From JBHIBR01 sp046759145 [NCBI: Nitrospinota bacterium] (lineage in GTDB: Bacteria; UBA8248), in NCBI GenBank assembly GCA_046759145.1, contig JBHIBR010000100.1, forward strand, positions 1-6,797: a stretch of DNA of 6,797 nucleotides, read 5' to 3'. Under the pieces are notes generated by a model, which worked only from the letters and a program-made list of their open reading frames with translations, was not told the DNA's origin and made no database searches. Positions within the stretch are counted from its first letter, which is position 1. Each line of letters starts with the position of its first letter. A program made the translations under genes and the position numbers. Shown here in pieces: positions 1 through 6,797 of the stretch.

Positions 1-2454
1 TATGACTCTATCCGGCTCCTTGGCCTCTTTGAGCGCTCGTTCAGATGTCTGCAGGAGTGGCGCCTCCCGGTCGAAACCCACAGGCGAGGGCTTCAGCTCG
101 ACGAACCAGAACGACCGCGGCACAATGGTGGCGCCCTCCTTGAACCGTTTCTTGTAATAACTCGCTTCGAGAGCGCGCCGTCGCCTTCCCGTCGCCCAGT
201 AAGAACGGGCACCCACTTTATGCAACGAGAGACTGATTTCCTCCCCCACAAGGAGTTTCTGGGCTTCATCCAGCGAGGCATTTCGACGGTCGCGGCCAAG
301 GCCCCCCGAGAGCTTCTCCCCGGCGAGGGGATACGGAACCTTTCCCTTCTCCGCCCTGTGGGCGAAAAGCACGCAAGCGGGCACGTTGAAGAGGGGCTCG
401 ACCTCCTCCAGGTCCCAAACGCGCACAACAGCGAGGCCCACCGCCTGAAAGCCCCCTTCACGGAAGACATGGTGCTGGTCTGCGGTGAAGACGCTCCGGG
501 GCATCACAAAGGCGATGGCGCCATCTCGTTTGAGATACAGATGAGCCGCCCGTAAGAAGAAGAGGGTGGCGAGCTCCATGTGGGTGATGAGGTACCCAGC
601 TCCCTTTACTAAGGCATAGGTCCTGGTGATTTGGGTTTTTAGGAAGCTCTGGTAGTCAAGCTGGTCCACGTATCGGTAGGAGAGCCAGGGAGGATTGCCC
701 ACCACCAGATCGAACTTCTTCATCAGGGAAAGGGGCTTGTAGATGTTCTTCAGGACGAATGACCAGATGGTGTCGCGGTTCTTCTCAATGAGGCTCTTGA
801 GTGCAGAGCACAAACCGTAAAGGGTCTGGACCGTCCCGGAATCCTCGGCCCACTCCAAATTGCGAGAACGGAGAAAACTTTCGAATGCTGCCCGCTGCAT
901 GGGCTTCCCCACGTGTTCAGAAGCAAATTCGCGGGCCGTCTCGATGGCTTCGTCGTATTGCGGTGGATTTTCCACTAGCTTCCGGGGGAGGAAAACCTCT
1001 TTACCGTCAATGGATTCCCGGTAATCTGCGCGGGGAGAGTCGGCCCAGGGTTCGGGCGGCTTCAAGGTGTTTGCCAGGTAGACGGGGATGCTGATCCTGC
1101 CTCTCAGCCTCTTGAGCAGATCCCCCAGGGCCAATATGTAGCTTGTTTTGGCGATGATGACTGCAAGGGGGTGGATGTCCACACCCACGACCCCCTCCAG
1201 GATCTGCCCCAGGGTCCGATTAGAGTCCCCCAGCTTGGCTCTTTTCTCCTTGATGGCCTGGTAAAGAAAAGTGCCCGACCCGCAAGCAGGATCGAGCAGC
1301 GAGCGTCCCGGCTCATCCTTCAAGACCTCCCGAATCATGCGATGGGCAAGCCAGTCGGGGGTGTAAAACTCCCCCAGATCATGGCGGGTCTTGGGGTCCA
1401 CAAGCTCCTGGTATAGGGATTTCAGGATGTCCTCGGAGAGCTGCCGGAGGTTGTAGTTGGAAAGCAGGCTCAGCAGTAGGCGCGCTGCCTGGATGCCTTC
1501 CCTTTCTGCGCCGGGGCGCACCAACCAGGAGAAGAAATCCTCCTCCAGAAAGTTTTCGATGCCCTGGTCCTTGAAGAACTGGCCCTCTAGCACTTTCACG
1601 ATGTCTTCATTGGTGGGCCTACCCCTTGGTTCTCCAATCCGCTGCCAGACCATGAGCTTCGCGAGGCTGGCGAGGTAGGTGTGGCGGATGAAGAGATCAT
1701 CTTCCCCGACCGCGCTGCCATAGACGATCCGCAAGTATTTGTCCCAGCTTTCATAGAAGACAGAAAACCCTGAGTCTGCCCCCAGGCTCCTCCAAAGAGC
1801 CAGGAGATTTTGCGCCGTCACCTGAAACGCGTGGCTCTCGGGGCCAAAGTCACGGACAAACCCCTCGGTTGTGGGAGCAAGGATTTCTTTGCGGAGGTAG
1901 TATCGGTCAACCCAGAAATAGACCTCATGGGGCTCAAGGTCCGCCCAGTCCACCTTCTCCAGCAGATGAAGGTGAATGTGGTCTGGCTCAATTTCCCCGT
2001 TTGCTTTCTCTGCCAGGGAAGGCGAATAGACGCGGAAGAACCGACCATCTGTGGCAATGCAAAGGTAGGGCCTGCGGCGCTCTTGAGCTTCTTCCGACCA
2101 GAGGGCCGCGACATACTTCTTGAGTTGCCCCTCCGCCTCTGCCTGGCTTCGGCGAAGATCGCGCTCGAACTCGATAACCAGGTTGTCGAAGAGGTTGTCC
2201 ACGCTGCCTCTCCGGACTCGGTCTTTCTCCTTCAGCCGAAGATGTTTTTCGATCCCTGAGACGTATTGCTCAATGAAGCTAGGCTCTTCCCCAAACAGTT
2301 CTTGAAGCAGTGCCCCGAACCGGTGAGACTTGGCGGACTCGGTGTTTAAAGTCGAGATATCTCGCAGGTAGGCCGGGACGGCCGAATTCCACCTCCCCTC
2401 CCGCACCTCAGGCACGCGGGCGGCTTTTTCGCGCAGCTTCGTGCGCTTAGTCAC
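1..2454 (-). CDS. Type IIG-like restriction-modification enzyme: N6-adenine DNA methyltransferase with probable N-terminal nuclease (3' end beyond window)
   Basis: Reading the minus strand from 2454 to 1 gives 818 sense codons with no stop, so the C-terminus lies off the left edge. Seen: an N-terminal block with D86, D90 and E95-F-E97 in the context GSVDNLFDNLVIEFERDL, followed by an AEGQLKKYVAALW helix, which resembles a PD-(D/E)XK nuclease core. Next are a mostly helical region, GEFYTP (F363, Y364), SAM-binding motif I LLDPACGSGTF (D388-F396), VDIHP (D426), catalytic motif IV VVGNPPW (N587-W590), and a DGAIAFVMPRSVF strand near residue 647. The part after about residue 690 is probably the start of the target-recognition domain. 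Family knowledge: DPACGSGTF plus NPPW marks N6-adenine methylases of the Eco57I/type IIG kind, often about 1000 aa or more, which methylate and cut DNA with one chain. The start is GTG at 2452-2454, because an in-frame TGA lies at 2461-2463. The start overlaps the upstream stop by 8 nt, suggesting translational coupling, and AAGGA lies about 11 nt upstream. Base composition is less GC-rich than the genes to the right. The methylase call is firm; the nuclease call is moderate. Confidence 0.9.
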   Translation of the reverse strand, partial: MTKRTKLREKAARVPEVREGRWNSAVPAYLRDISTLNTESAKSHRFGALLQELFGEEPSFIEQYVSGIEKHLRLKEKDRVRRGSVDNLFDNLVIEFERDLRRSQAEAEGQLKKYVAALWSEEAQERRRPYLCIATDGRFFRVYSPSLAEKANGEIEPDHIHLHLLEKVDWADLEPHEVYFWVDRYYLRKEILAPTTEGFVRDFGPESHAFQVTAQNLLALWRSLGADSGFSVFYESWDKYLRIVYGSAVGEDDLFIRHTYLASLAKLMVWQRIGEPRGRPTNEDIVKVLEGQFFKDQGIENFLEEDFFSWLVRPGAEREGIQAARLLLSLLSNYNLRQLSEDILKSLYQELVDPKTRHDLGEFYTPDWLAHRMIREVLKDEPGRSLLDPACGSGTFLYQAIKEKRAKLGDSNRTLGQILEGVVGVDIHPLAVIIAKTSYILALGDLLKRLRGRISIPVYLANTLKPPEPWADSPRADYRESIDGKEVFLPRKLVENPPQYDEAIETAREFASEHVGKPMQRAAFESFLRSRNLEWAEDSGTVQTLYGLCSALKSLIEKNRDTIWSFVLKNIYKPLSLMKKFDLVVGNPPWLSYRYVDQLDYQSFLKTQITRTYALVKGAGYLITHMELATLFFLRAAHLYLKRDGAIAFVMPRSVFTADQHHVFREGGFQAVGLAVVRVWDLEEVEPLFNVPACVLFAHRAEKGKVPYPLAGEKLSGGLGRDRRNASLDEAQKLLVGEEISLSLHKVGARSYWATGRRRRALEASYYKKRFKEGATIVPRSFWFVELKPSPVGFDREAPLLQTSERALKEAKEPDRVI

Positions 2455-2734
2455 TGGAACTCAGGTCCTTTGCCAGGCGGCGCGCTATCTCGAATGCAGC
2501 GGCGATCCGAATGATTTTTACGTCAGAGAGGCCCTTGAAGTCGAGGAATTTTTCAAGTGGCTGATTCGCCATGCCGTAGAAGGAGCCGTAAGTGCGGAGG
2601 ATTTCTTCGGCAATGGCTAGGGCGGATTTCCCCTTAATCCCGGTGGATATCAAGACCGCCAGCAGCTCTGCGTCCGAGAGGGCGGACGCCCCCTTCTCCC
2701 TCAGCTTCCCGCCCGGGTGTTTCCACGACTCCAA
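2447..2734 (-). CDS. Stand-alone RadC N-terminal (UPF0758, helix-hairpin-helix) domain protein
   Basis: This 95-aa protein matches the first domain of RadC: GGKLREKGASALSDAELLAV (residues ~8-27) corresponds to the RadC start REKLLxxGxxALSDAELLA, then STGIKGKSALAIAEEIL, then a helix-hairpin-helix-like stretch FKGLSDVKIIRIAAAFEIARR. Full RadC is about 220-230 aa and continues into a JAB/MPN metalloprotease-like domain with an HxH...D site. That domain is absent, since the frame ends in SSSD and a TAA. Start: TTG at 2732-2734, with AGGGGAG about 10 nt upstream and no in-frame ATG or GTG nearby upstream. The gene begins 16 bp after the acyl-CoA dehydrogenase stop, and its last 8 nt (GTGACTAA) contain the GTG start of the methylase/nuclease gene. 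Inference: it is an accessory DNA-binding or adaptor protein of the restriction-modification module rather than a repair enzyme. It could instead be the remnant of a full radC, but the clean end and the coupled start argue against decay. Its molecular role is unknown. Confidence 0.8.
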   Translation of the reverse strand: MESWKHPGGKLREKGASALSDAELLAVLISTGIKGKSALAIAEEILRTYGSFYGMANQPLEKFLDFKGLSDVKIIRIAAAFEIARRLAKDLSSSD

Positions 2735-2750
2735 GGGCGAGTTTCTCCCC

Positions 2751-3899
2751 TCACAGCCCCAGCAGGTTGCGGGCGATGACGAGGCGCTGGATCTGGTTGG
2801 TACCCTCTACGATCTGGAGCTGTTTGGCGTCGCGCATGAAGCGCTCGAGCGGGTGGTCCTTCATGTAGCCCGCCCCGCCGAGCACCTGGATGGCGTCCAC
2901 GGCCACCCGCATGGCGTTATCCGCGGCGAAGCATTTCGCCATGGAGGAGAGGTGGGCGTGCTCTCTCCCGATGAGGCCCTCATCCACCCCGGCGGCCGCC
3001 CGGTAGACGAGGAGCCGCGCGGCTTCCGTCCCGAGGGCCATGTCGGCCAGCATGAACTGGATGGCCTGAAGGTTCGCGATGGCCCCCCCGAAGGCCTCCC
3101 GCTCGCGGGCGTAGCGAAGGGCGTAGTCCAGGCACCCCTGGGCGAGGCCCACCCCGCGCGCGCCCACGGCGGGCCGCACCTGGTTGAAGCCCCGCATGGC
3201 GAGGTGGAAGCCGCGGTTGAGCTCCCCCACCACGCTCTCCGCAGGCACGCGGCAGCCCTCATAGAAGAGCTCCACGCTCGGCACCCCCCGCATCCCCATC
3301 TTCCGCTCTTGGCGTCCGATGCGGAAGCCGGGCGCATCGAGGGGCACGAGGAAGAAGCTGATCCCCCGCGTCCCCGCCCCCGGGTCGGTCTTGGCGGCGG
3401 TGAGCACGAAGTCGGCGTAGGGGGGGCCTGTGCAGAAGCATTTCTGGCCATTGAGGACCCAGCCGTCCCCCTCCCGGGCGGCGCGGGTGCGGATGTTGGC
3501 CGCGTCTGAGCCCGCGTGGGGCTCGGTGAGGGCGAAGGCGCCCCGCACCTCCCCCCGCGCCAGGGCGGGCAGGTGGCGGCCCTTGAGCTCCGCGCTCCCC
3601 CCCAGCGCGATGGGGCGGCTCGCGAGCATGGTGAGGACGATGAGGAGGGCGCTGTTGGAGCAGACGCGAGCGATCTCCTCGATGGCCACGCACCCGCCCA
3701 GGAAGCCTAGCCCTCCGCCCCCCACCCCCTCGGGCAGGAAGATGCCCAGGAGATGCGCCTCCCGCAGGAGGGCGAAGATGTCCTCGGGGTACTCCTCGCG
3801 CTCATCCACTTCGGCCGCCCGGGGGGCGATGCGGCTCTCGGCGAGCTCCCGCACCATGGTGCGCAGCATCCGGTGCGTCTCGCTCAGCTCGAACTCCAT
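2751..3899 (-). CDS. Acyl-CoA dehydrogenase (FAD-dependent)
   Basis: A complete 382-aa protein of the usual length for the soluble homotetrameric acyl-CoA dehydrogenase family, which oxidises the alpha-beta bond of an acyl-CoA and passes electrons to ETF. Seen: an N-terminal helical domain opening MEFELSETHRMLR; FALTEPHAGSDAA (residues ~122-134), which contacts the flavin; a middle beta domain with GQKCFCTG (151-158); FGGAIANLQAIQFMLADMAL (270-289), the FAD/tetramer segment; and LGGAGYMKDHPLERFMRDAK (340-359). QIVEGTNQIQR follows, with E365 at the position of the catalytic base of short/medium-chain and glutaryl/isobutyryl-type enzymes. The substrate cannot be read from the sequence; short, branched or medium acyl-CoAs are all possible. 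The ATG at 3897-3899 has GCGAGG five bases upstream and a plausible promoter ending about 36 nt upstream. The gene is divergent from amt and is followed after 16 bp by the RadC-domain gene, so read-through into the defence genes is likely. The composition is strongly GC-rich. Confidence 0.95.
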   Translation of the reverse strand: MEFELSETHRMLRTMVRELAESRIAPRAAEVDEREEYPEDIFALLREAHLLGIFLPEGVGGGGLGFLGGCVAIEEIARVCSNSALLIVLTMLASRPIALGGSAELKGRHLPALARGEVRGAFALTEPHAGSDAANIRTRAAREGDGWVLNGQKCFCTGPPYADFVLTAAKTDPGAGTRGISFFLVPLDAPGFRIGRQERKMGMRGVPSVELFYEGCRVPAESVVGELNRGFHLAMRGFNQVRPAVGARGVGLAQGCLDYALRYAREREAFGGAIANLQAIQFMLADMALGTEAARLLVYRAAAGVDEGLIGREHAHLSSMAKCFAADNAMRVAVDAIQVLGGAGYMKDHPLERFMRDAKQLQIVEGTNQIQRLVIARNLLGL

Positions 3900-5537: not shown

Positions 5538-6797
5538 CTAAAAAGCCACCGGCTCTTTGAACTCCCCAAACACCTCGCGTAGCGTGTTCGTCATCTCCCC
5601 CAGGGTGGCGTAGCTCTCGACCGCCTCCAGGATGGGGCCCATCAGGTTCTGAGTGCCCCGGGCGGCTTCTCCGAGCCTCCGGAGGGCGGCCTCGGCGCGG
5701 CGCTCATCCCTTCCCTCCTGCACCGCCCGGAGGCGCGCGAGCTGGCGGTCCACGCCCTGAGGGTCGGGGCGGAAGATGGCGAAATTCCGCCGGGGGGCGC
5801 CAGTGTATTTGTTCACGCCCACCACCACCCTCTCCCCCGCGTCCACCTGCTTCTGGGCGCGGTAGGCGGACTCGGCGATGCGGCGCTGGATCTCCCCCGC
5901 CTCGATGGCCCGGACCATCCCTCCGCGGTCCTCCACCTCGCGGATGAGCTGGGCGATGGCCTCCTCCATCCGGGCGGTGAGGTTTTCGACGAAGTAGGAG
6001 CCCCCCAGGGGGTCGGCCGTGGCGGGCACGCCCGTCTCGTGGGCGAGGACCTGCTGGGTGCGGAGCGCCAGGAGGGCCGACTCCTCGGTGGGGAGGGCGA
6101 GGGCCTCGTCCCAGGCGCAGGTGAAGATGGTCTGGGTGCCCCCCAGCACCGAGGCCAGCGCCTCGTAGGCGACCCGGACGATGTTGTTCTCGGGCTCGAT
6201 GGCGGTGAGGGTGCTCCCCCCGCACACCACCCCGAAGCGGAACCGCCACGAGCGCGGGTCCTTGGCGCCGAAGCGTTCCCGCATCAGTTTTGCCCAGAGC
6301 TTGCGCATGGCGCGGTATTTGGCGACCTCCTCGAAGAAGTCGCTGTGGGTGTAGAAGTAGAAGCTGATCCGGGGGGCGAAGTCGTCCACCCGCAGGCCCC
6401 GGGCGAGGGCGCACTCCACATAAGTGATGGCGTCGGCCAGGGTGAAGGCGGCCTCCTGGACCGCCGTCGCGCCCGCGTCGCGGAAGTGGGCCCCCGCCAC
6501 GCTGATGGGGTTGAAGCGCGGGACCTCCCGCATGGCGTACTCCAGCGTATCCACGATGAGCCGCAGCGAGGGCTCGGCGGGGAAGATCCACGTGCCCCGG
6601 GCCACGTACTCCTTCAGGATGTCGTTCTGGGTGGTACCGCGCAGCTCTGCCGGCGCGGCACCCTGTTTCTTGCCCACCGCCACGTACATGGCGAGGAGGA
6701 TGGCGGCCGTGGCGTTGATGGTGAAGGAGGTGCTCACCCGCCCGAGGGGGATGCCGCGGAAGAGGGTCTCCATGTCGTCGAGGGTGTCGATGGCCAC
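5538..6797 (-). CDS. Acyl-CoA mutase large subunit, methylmalonyl-CoA mutase family (5' end beyond window)
   Basis: The last 419 residues of the catalytic (TIM-barrel) subunit of a coenzyme-B12-dependent acyl-CoA carbon-skeleton mutase. The visible start (AIDTLDDMETLF) aligns inside the family, so roughly 100-140 N-terminal residues lie beyond the right edge. Seen, numbered from the window edge: VSTSFTINATAAILLAMYVA (21-40), TQNDILKEYVARGTWIFPAE (56-75) with R67 at the place of Arg207 of the Propionibacterium enzyme, AGAHFRDAGATA (101-112) with H104 at the place of His244, ENNIVR, ALALPTEESA (232-241), DPLGGSYFVE (262-271) and VVVGVNKYTG (324-333). Arg at the 207 site favours a carboxylated substrate (methylmalonyl- or ethylmalonyl-like) over isobutyryl-CoA, whose mutase has Gln there. 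However, the Tyr before the His is Ala (A103), and the VCGGST and TIFTCAWDEA blocks differ from canonical enzymes, so the substrate is uncertain. The chain stops at GEFKEPVAF without a B12-binding domain, as in split mutases whose cobalamin subunit is a separate gene. That gene is not in the window. Confidence 0.93.
   Translation of the reverse strand: MAIDTLDDMETLFRGIPLGRVSTSFTINATAAILLAMYVAVGKKQGAAPAELRGTTQNDILKEYVARGTWIFPAEPSLRLIVDTLEYAMREVPRFNPISVAGAHFRDAGATAVQEAAFTLADAITYVECALARGLRVDDFAPRISFYFYTHSDFFEEVAKYRAMRKLWAKLMRERFGAKDPRSWRFRFGVVCGGSTLTAIEPENNIVRVAYEALASVLGGTQTIFTCAWDEALALPTEESALLALRTQQVLAHETGVPATADPLGGSYFVENLTARMEEAIAQLIREVEDRGGMVRAIEAGEIQRRIAESAYRAQKQVDAGERVVVGVNKYTGAPRRNFAIFRPDPQGVDRQLARLRAVQEGRDERRAEAALRRLGEAARGTQNLMGPILEAVESYATLGEMTNTLREVFGEFKEPVAF

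Follow-up and report, generated by a model that had tools for sequence, protein, structure and literature searches.

Positions 1 to 6,797 of contig JBHIBR010000100.1 from the Nitrospinota bacterium JBHIBR01 sp046759145 (assembly GCA_046759145.1), hereafter the window, carry a stand-alone gene for the N-terminal domain of RadC (UPF0758_N), the end of which overlaps the start of a gene encoding a type IIG-like N6-adenine methylase and probable nuclease. Short RadC-domain genes of this kind constitute a conserved family of their own and are recurrently linked to restriction-modification genes, a linkage which is not due to chance. These findings point to an apparently undescribed restriction-modification variant, in which a reduced RadC protein would be an accessory part.

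The small gene (2447..2734, minus strand) encodes 95 amino acids between a TTG start codon and a TAA stop codon. The enzyme gene (1..2454, minus strand) begins with GTG and is open at the window edge after 817 translated codons. The two frames share the 8 nucleotides (nt) GTGACTAA (2447..2454, minus strand), as reported in an initial annotation of this DNA, which also regarded GTG 2454 as the only possible start of the methylase. It is the most upstream one, preceded three codons before by an in-frame stop, but further in-frame start codons at residues 14, 17 and 85 contradict that claim as worded; the start at 2454 is backed by relatives retaining enzyme residues 1-16.

A separate family of short RadC-domain proteins

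Residues 6-74 of the small protein match the Pfam family UPF0758_N (PF20582) with an E value of 4.5e-18 and 65.5 bits against a cut-off of 27.1, and no other Pfam family or any PADLOC family was matched at E values up to 1. Its scores against the NCBIfam RadC models (72.6 and 58.4 bits) lie far below their cut-offs (180 and 133.85). The open reading frame (ORF) ends at residue 95 and no JAB/MPN domain was matched, in agreement with the solitary domain initially annotated. A small helix-turn-helix controller (C) protein was considered and ruled out, UPF0758_N being the sole Pfam match at E values up to 1.

From at least 169 loci encoding relatives in a scan of genome contigs, 80 were kept. Among these, the best 44 (L001-L044) share 52-80% identity with the small protein and 43 of them stop within about 100 codons of the match, the exception (L036) running off its contig. 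It follows that homologs above 50% identity are not usually full-length RadC. The other 36 loci kept (at most 46% identity) correspond to 35 full-length RadC genes and one gene cut by the end of its contig (L057). With identical copies merged, 79 non-redundant short members were assembled together with their downstream DNA; L039, L043 and L044, whose small genes are cut or broken, did not pass the filter of 85 bits and were left out. In a tree comprising these 79 members and 36 N-terminal domains of the full-length type, the two groups are split by a branch with an approximate likelihood-ratio support (SH-aLRT) of 99, although few columns were available and most inner forks are unresolved. Twenty columns are invariant among 37 members, including most of two signatures, the N-terminal W.HPGGKL and the C-terminal RIAAAFEIARR. 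The ratio of nonsynonymous to synonymous substitution rates (dN/dS) has a median of 0.05 and a maximum of 0.13 over 97 pairs above 80% identity, pairs sharing members. Collectively, these data show that the small gene belongs to a conserved family under protein-level purifying selection.

In 12 carrier genomes searched with the family profile, members scored 90-171 bits and all other matches at most 71; the latter include two matches with low scores, whose frames are 105 and 118 amino acids long. Eleven of the 12 genomes have frames of 229-386 amino acids, taken as full-length RadC. A JAB-part profile, built from 35 full-length RadC proteins, gave no match in the window or at the other 78 loci, so that no broken JAB domain was found nearby, the left flank of the window not being covered; the same profile gave matches in two control loci, both part of its own training set. 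The separate clade, the low dN/dS, the absence of a JAB part at the 79 loci and the full-length RadC in 11 of the 12 genomes rule out a truncated or pseudogene RadC. In two members, L140 (4729-5277) and L187 (G430:C120), the domain is duplicated in tandem within one frame of 183 and 186 amino acids, respectively; Pfam finds two domain stretches in L140.

The family has a patchy spread. At an E value of 1e-25, it was found in 12 of 295 genomes from the phylum of a Nitrospirae record, 14 of 297 from that of a Deltaproteobacteria record, 4 of 301 from that of a Chloroflexi record and 14 of 147 from that of a WOR-3 record, i.e., in 44 of 1040 genomes, genomes at the center of each search and already known as carriers being counted in. 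Phage or plasmid cargo was rejected as an explanation: the phage collection returned eight weak matches, all below 60% identity and with less than 80% of the query covered, nothing in the plasmid collection matched the small gene at an E value of 1e-10, and one locus from the viral-contig collection (L178) is the one member found across the three sets.

Linkage to restriction enzymes and a tail on the partners

Of the 79 members, 63 have restriction-modification genes or remnants downstream, eight have none and eight lie too near a contig end. By the automatic criterion, 61 have an enzyme, a methylase, a contig-cut part or a recognizable remnant within 1.6 kb on the same strand; two linked members, L186 (type I operon) and L137 (methylase fragment), were added by hand. 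Of the 67 short genes having at least 1.6 kb of downstream DNA, 53 are succeeded by an intact ORF with an adenine-methylase motif, and the pairing is thus not unique to this genome. As a control, such an ORF follows none of 32 full-length RadC genes. The difference (Fisher p 2e-15) is indicative only, the sequences being related and the control stemming largely from other, unmatched taxa. On the upstream side of the short genes, a methylase-motif ORF occurs in 1 of 67 cases. Thirty-seven of the 53 intact pairs overlap, 5 start within 30 nt and 11 are farther apart; since the most upstream starts were used, some overlaps may be shorter.

The partners fall into several classes. Class B is the largest, with 35 type IIG-like partners (about 1000-1170 amino acids when complete), followed by class A, with 13 type IIG-like partners and one fragment, which includes the window enzyme. 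Class C comprises six partners of about 845 amino acids, two of which (L040 and L140) were tested and match N6_N4_Mtase and MethyltransfD12, and class D three of about 1350 amino acids, L031 and L183 carrying Eco57I and TaqI_C. Single partners are a type ISP enzyme (L132), an HSDR_N protein with methylase (L038) and a type II pair of methylase and DpnII/BanI-like endonuclease (L013). Class B and class A enzymes nevertheless follow the small genes of L039 and L044, which were filtered out. The two-gene defense-like module proposed initially is thus upheld as a recurring pair, but its partner is not always of type IIG. On the small-gene tree, the class C partners correspond to one clade (SH-aLRT 95), and class A requires 7 changes against 13.5 in shuffles, none of 500 shuffles being as low. 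Partners have therefore been partly inherited together with the small gene.

Several loci have peculiarities of their own. Both tandem-domain genes (L140 and L187) precede class C methylases. At L186 (3287-9001), the short RadC gene is directly followed by a type I operon of R, S, TIR and M genes, the TIR gene, of the CAP12/Pycsar type, lying between S and M. A separate ORF of 125-153 amino acids follows the class B enzyme in L021, L032, L033, L182 and L197; in the first three, it is related in sequence to other class B enzymes, which suggests that the C-terminus has been split off. At L142 (5851-8090; G026:C1), two ORFs resembling an IS21-type transposase pair interrupt the C-terminal part of the class B enzyme, and at L003 (6489-7012) the class B enzyme is reduced to two short remnants next to an intact small gene. 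Other small genes separate the short RadC gene from the restriction gene or its remnant in L001, L003, L009, L012, L015, L016, L017 and L043, and likewise in L131-L133, L136, L138, L139 and L144, an arrangement resembling a small defense hot spot. Among these intervening genes, Pfam identified HicA (L001), PHD_like antitoxins (L003 and L012), ParE (L015), DUF2283 (L009) and PBECR2/DUF4258 (L139); others resemble these or VapBC by eye alone.

The window enzyme matches N6_Mtase, Eco57I and the PADLOC family REase_MTase_IIG (PDLC03630; E value 8.8e-76), the latter over residues 71-691; all 26 members of an enzyme alignment (A1) likewise match PDLC03630. Both motifs of N6-adenine methylases are present, motif I as DPACGSGTFL (residues 388-397; 1264..1293, minus strand) and motif IV as NPPW (residues 587-590; 685..696, minus strand). 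In the same chain, two invariant alignment columns, D78 and E95 (D...VIEFE; 2164..2223, minus strand), resemble a PD-(D/E)xK-type motif, so that a nuclease domain is probable. Of the initial description as a methylase with probable nuclease domain, the methylase part is thus confirmed by profile matches and the nuclease part is suggested by motif alone. Complete class A relatives are 1064-1118 amino acids long; the translation ends at residue 817, the C-terminus lying beyond the window, and a target recognition domain is expected after about residue 700. Two other identities were rejected, the best equivalog match to BREX PglX reaching 30.7 bits against a cut-off of 400, and that to MADS MAD2 52.1 bits against 720.

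Searches starting from the enzymes led to the same association. Of 15 genomes from two phyla that encode a class A or B enzyme, 14 also possess the small gene, the exception being G253, in contrast to none of 21 genomes having only weaker enzyme relatives; at most two candidates were scored per genome, and G400 was assigned to class A since its small gene lies on the L005 contig. Four class A enzymes from the WOR-3 phylum (1650-1920 bits) each adjoin a small gene, unlike the 19 weaker matches there. The Bacteroidetes phylum yielded 11 intact relatives of class A (795-884 bits), none of which has a small gene in its flanks, which extend up to about 1.5 kb (0.24 kb upstream for L250).

Linked enzymes also differ from unlinked ones at their N-terminus. 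A basic stretch of the type KKxKLxEKxxRIP precedes the nuclease-like domain in the linked enzymes of class A and in most of those of class B; in the window enzyme, it corresponds to the extra tail VTKRTKLREKAARVPE (2407..2454, minus strand), a candidate docking peptide. The linked class A enzymes from these phylum searches align to the class A profile starting at position 2, the unlinked Bacteroidetes relatives only at positions 19-25, and when 10 linked enzymes were aligned with 12 unlinked ones, the latter lacked the extension, except for L125, whose N-terminus has another sequence. Similarly, a class B tail profile recovers 12 of the 14 linked class A enzymes and none of 13 unlinked ones. 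Conversely, when a class A tail profile was applied to the first 45 residues, 21 of 35 linked class B enzymes, but none of 20 unlinked enzymes, scored above the highest of 642 internal class B windows. In the enzyme tree, which is unrooted and has long branches, the linked classes A and B are far apart, each with unlinked neighbors. As the tail tracks linkage and the two classes lie apart, tail and small gene were jointly gained or lost on about two lineages. The tail does not result from the overlap, since enzymes parted from the small gene by other genes (L009, L012, L139 and L180) still carry it.

Around the pair, an acyl-CoA dehydrogenase gene (2751..3899, minus strand) lies 16 nt upstream of the small gene in the same direction, as a neighbor outside the module, followed by an ammonium transporter gene on the opposite strand. 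A minus-strand frame at 5538-6797 resembles the large subunit of methylmalonyl-CoA mutase. A putative ribosome-binding site, AGGGGAG (2745..2751, minus strand), is located 10 nt 5' of the TTG codon. The two-gene stretch has a G+C content of 58%, against 70% for the rest of the window, and this contrast fits acquisition by transfer. No RNA element was found in the window at Rfam gathering scores.

A proposed accessory subunit and competing explanations

UPF0758_N is a double helix-hairpin-helix (HhH) domain, a type of domain that binds the backbone of DNA regardless of sequence. The small protein was modeled as a compact helical domain with a mean predicted local distance difference test score (pLDDT) of 93. 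Its nearest solved folds are the HhH domains of DisA, XPF/ERCC1, DNA ligase and UvrC (Z scores 5.7-7.5), with the DisA HhH domain and XPF/ERCC1 among the top matches (6.8-7.5). In this model, the fold scores support an HhH-like arrangement and no single relative.

A mechanism can be proposed on this basis. After evolution of a RadC-type HhH domain, devoid of the JAB domain, as a family apart, the small protein would be translated just ahead of the enzyme, usually via overlapping frames, and would grip the DNA backbone independently of sequence. It may then dock onto the basic tail of the type IIG enzyme, beside the PD-(D/E)xK-like domain, and gate the timing of cutting by the nuclease. We infer DNA binding, docking on the tail and gating of cleavage. 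This is the simplest and likeliest of the explanations considered, and the chances that the small protein is such a dedicated DNA-binding subunit appear to us evenly balanced. As to the direction of gating, restraint on host DNA is slightly favored over activation, given that the small gene precedes that of the enzyme and that a few members lack a neighboring enzyme. In a model of a class A enzyme (L011), the first 17 residues have a pLDDT below 50, which weakly fits a flexible tail.

Several observations weigh against this proposal. Regarding the fold, unrelated NusA and SAM domains tie with the HhH scores, Foldseek gave no match for the small-protein model at an E value of 0.001, and the L011 model is poor (mean pLDDT 65.7) and was left out of the fold search. 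Regarding the tail, its link with the small gene comes from about two independent lineages, placed in a tree that is unrooted and has long branches. When the class A tail profile was applied to windows of 60 residues, the threshold was spoiled by one internal window at 22.4 (L139); 18 of 35 linked class B enzymes exceed the second-highest internal window, but 3 of 10 unlinked ones score above 9.4 at the nuclease motif. None of 12 partners of other classes passed the tail test, L038 being nearest and the type I partner lying outside the tested set; the partners are too diverse to share a single protein-protein interface. Within a group of Nitrospirae and related records, small genes that are almost identical precede classes A, B, D and others, and partners have therefore also been exchanged; in that group, intervening small genes are frequent and, where tested, toxin-antitoxin-like. 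One genome, G253 (contig C172, locus L143), retains a class B enzyme with a class B tail and no small gene; this tail scores -2.9 in the 45-residue class A test and 26.4 with a class B profile trained on near kin. At this locus, a gene judged HicA-like by eye occupies the place of the small gene. 

Eight members with at least 1.6 kb of downstream DNA (L001, L020, L028, L135, L136, L147, L188 and L194) have no restriction gene within 1.6 kb, as judged for L001 and L136 by running the downstream proteins against Pfam and for the other six by motif and profile test; in L001, a ResIII helicase gene lies 1.8 kb downstream. Tight coupling had initially been taken to imply that both products are needed together. 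Given the intervening genes of some relatives, the lone members and G253, coupling is no proof of a strict need.

The small protein might alternatively be an immunity-like timing factor rather than a stable subunit, restraining the nuclease on host DNA, as an antitoxin would, until methylation is established. The position of the small gene ahead of the enzyme, the eight lone members, two of which (L020 and L136) belong to pairs with dN/dS of 0.05-0.12, and the many linked restriction types, which suggest a common DNA-level step, are all in line with such a role. Type IIG enzymes normally protect the host through their own methylase, though, and G253 keeps its enzyme without the small gene. In addition, two of the lone members are shortened, L147 to 81 and L188 to 68 amino acids, and L135 is divergent, and partner loss cannot be dated by pairwise dN/dS, so that persistence alone is weakly supported. 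We consider this explanation unlikely.

The presence of HhH domains from repair proteins among the nearest folds, together with the generality across restriction types, would also agree with a repair factor which binds nicks or breaks left by the restriction enzyme and assists in restoring the host chromosome. However, the small protein has no catalytic domain, and such a function leaves unexplained why the enzyme tail tracks the presence of the small gene; it seems distinctly improbable. The frequent frame overlap would be expected if the small ORF chiefly set translation of the enzyme, its product being of little importance, but the purifying selection at the protein level, the 20 invariant residues and the 11 of 53 intact pairs separated by more than 30 nt, several with intervening small genes, make such a coupling device very improbable. 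Least plausible of all, a conserved gene merely marking an insertion hot spot for defense genes would account for the varied small and restriction genes after nearly identical copies in Nitrospirae and related records, but not for an overlapping-frame pair recurring in records titled Nitrospirae, Deltaproteobacteria, Chloroflexi, Bacteroidetes and WOR-3, the single class C clade and the patchiness of the family.

Relation to known systems and significance

The short proteins share the UPF0758_N domain with full-length RadC (35-46% identity in the full-length matches kept) but differ by the lack of a JAB/MPN domain, by their separate clade and by their own W.HPGGKL and RIAAAFEIARR signatures. 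Like known type IIG enzymes (PDLC03630), the window enzyme combines a nuclease-like N-terminal domain and an N6-adenine methylase in a single chain; unlike them, it has a RadC-type HhH partner protein and an extra N-terminal tail. XPF/ERCC1-type nucleases unite a PD-(D/E)xK nuclease and an (HhH)2 domain in one chain. The association of a PD-(D/E)xK-like nuclease with HhH is reminiscent of these enzymes, as a likeness of working and not of descent, but here it would involve two polypeptides and a methylase, and the fold matches are weak.

RadC relatives adjoining restriction-related genes have precedents. PMC12458937 describes RadC genes beside antirestriction genes in mobile elements (RadC/ArdB 'moron' modules), and PMC5512222 a JAB-type RadC domain in mobile elements, fused with ArdC-N and HhH. 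The difference is that between a JAB-type RadC in mobile elements (PMC5512222) and, here, the HhH part alone, apparently chromosomal and tied to restriction itself. No description of a short-RadC/restriction-enzyme pair was found in the literature searched, REBASE and most subscription journals being outside reach.

Bacterial RadC is widely distributed, and there is no agreement on its function. The family described here is a natural HhH-only form that has been maintained alongside restriction enzymes, which isolates this domain in a context where restriction and methylation are measurable. A short UPF0758_N gene followed by a tailed enzyme would provide a simple signature for finding more such systems. 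If the proposed role is correct, the small protein would be a general accessory part added to restriction systems. A broader version, which we put forward tentatively and on balance doubt, is that of a portable restriction-control part, i.e., a non-specific DNA-binding subunit gating cleavage in type I, II, IIG and ISP systems, with the same docking tail on two type IIG lineages. Should it be true, the N-terminal domain of RadC would gain a testable biochemical role, and RadC would be tied to restriction, not repair.

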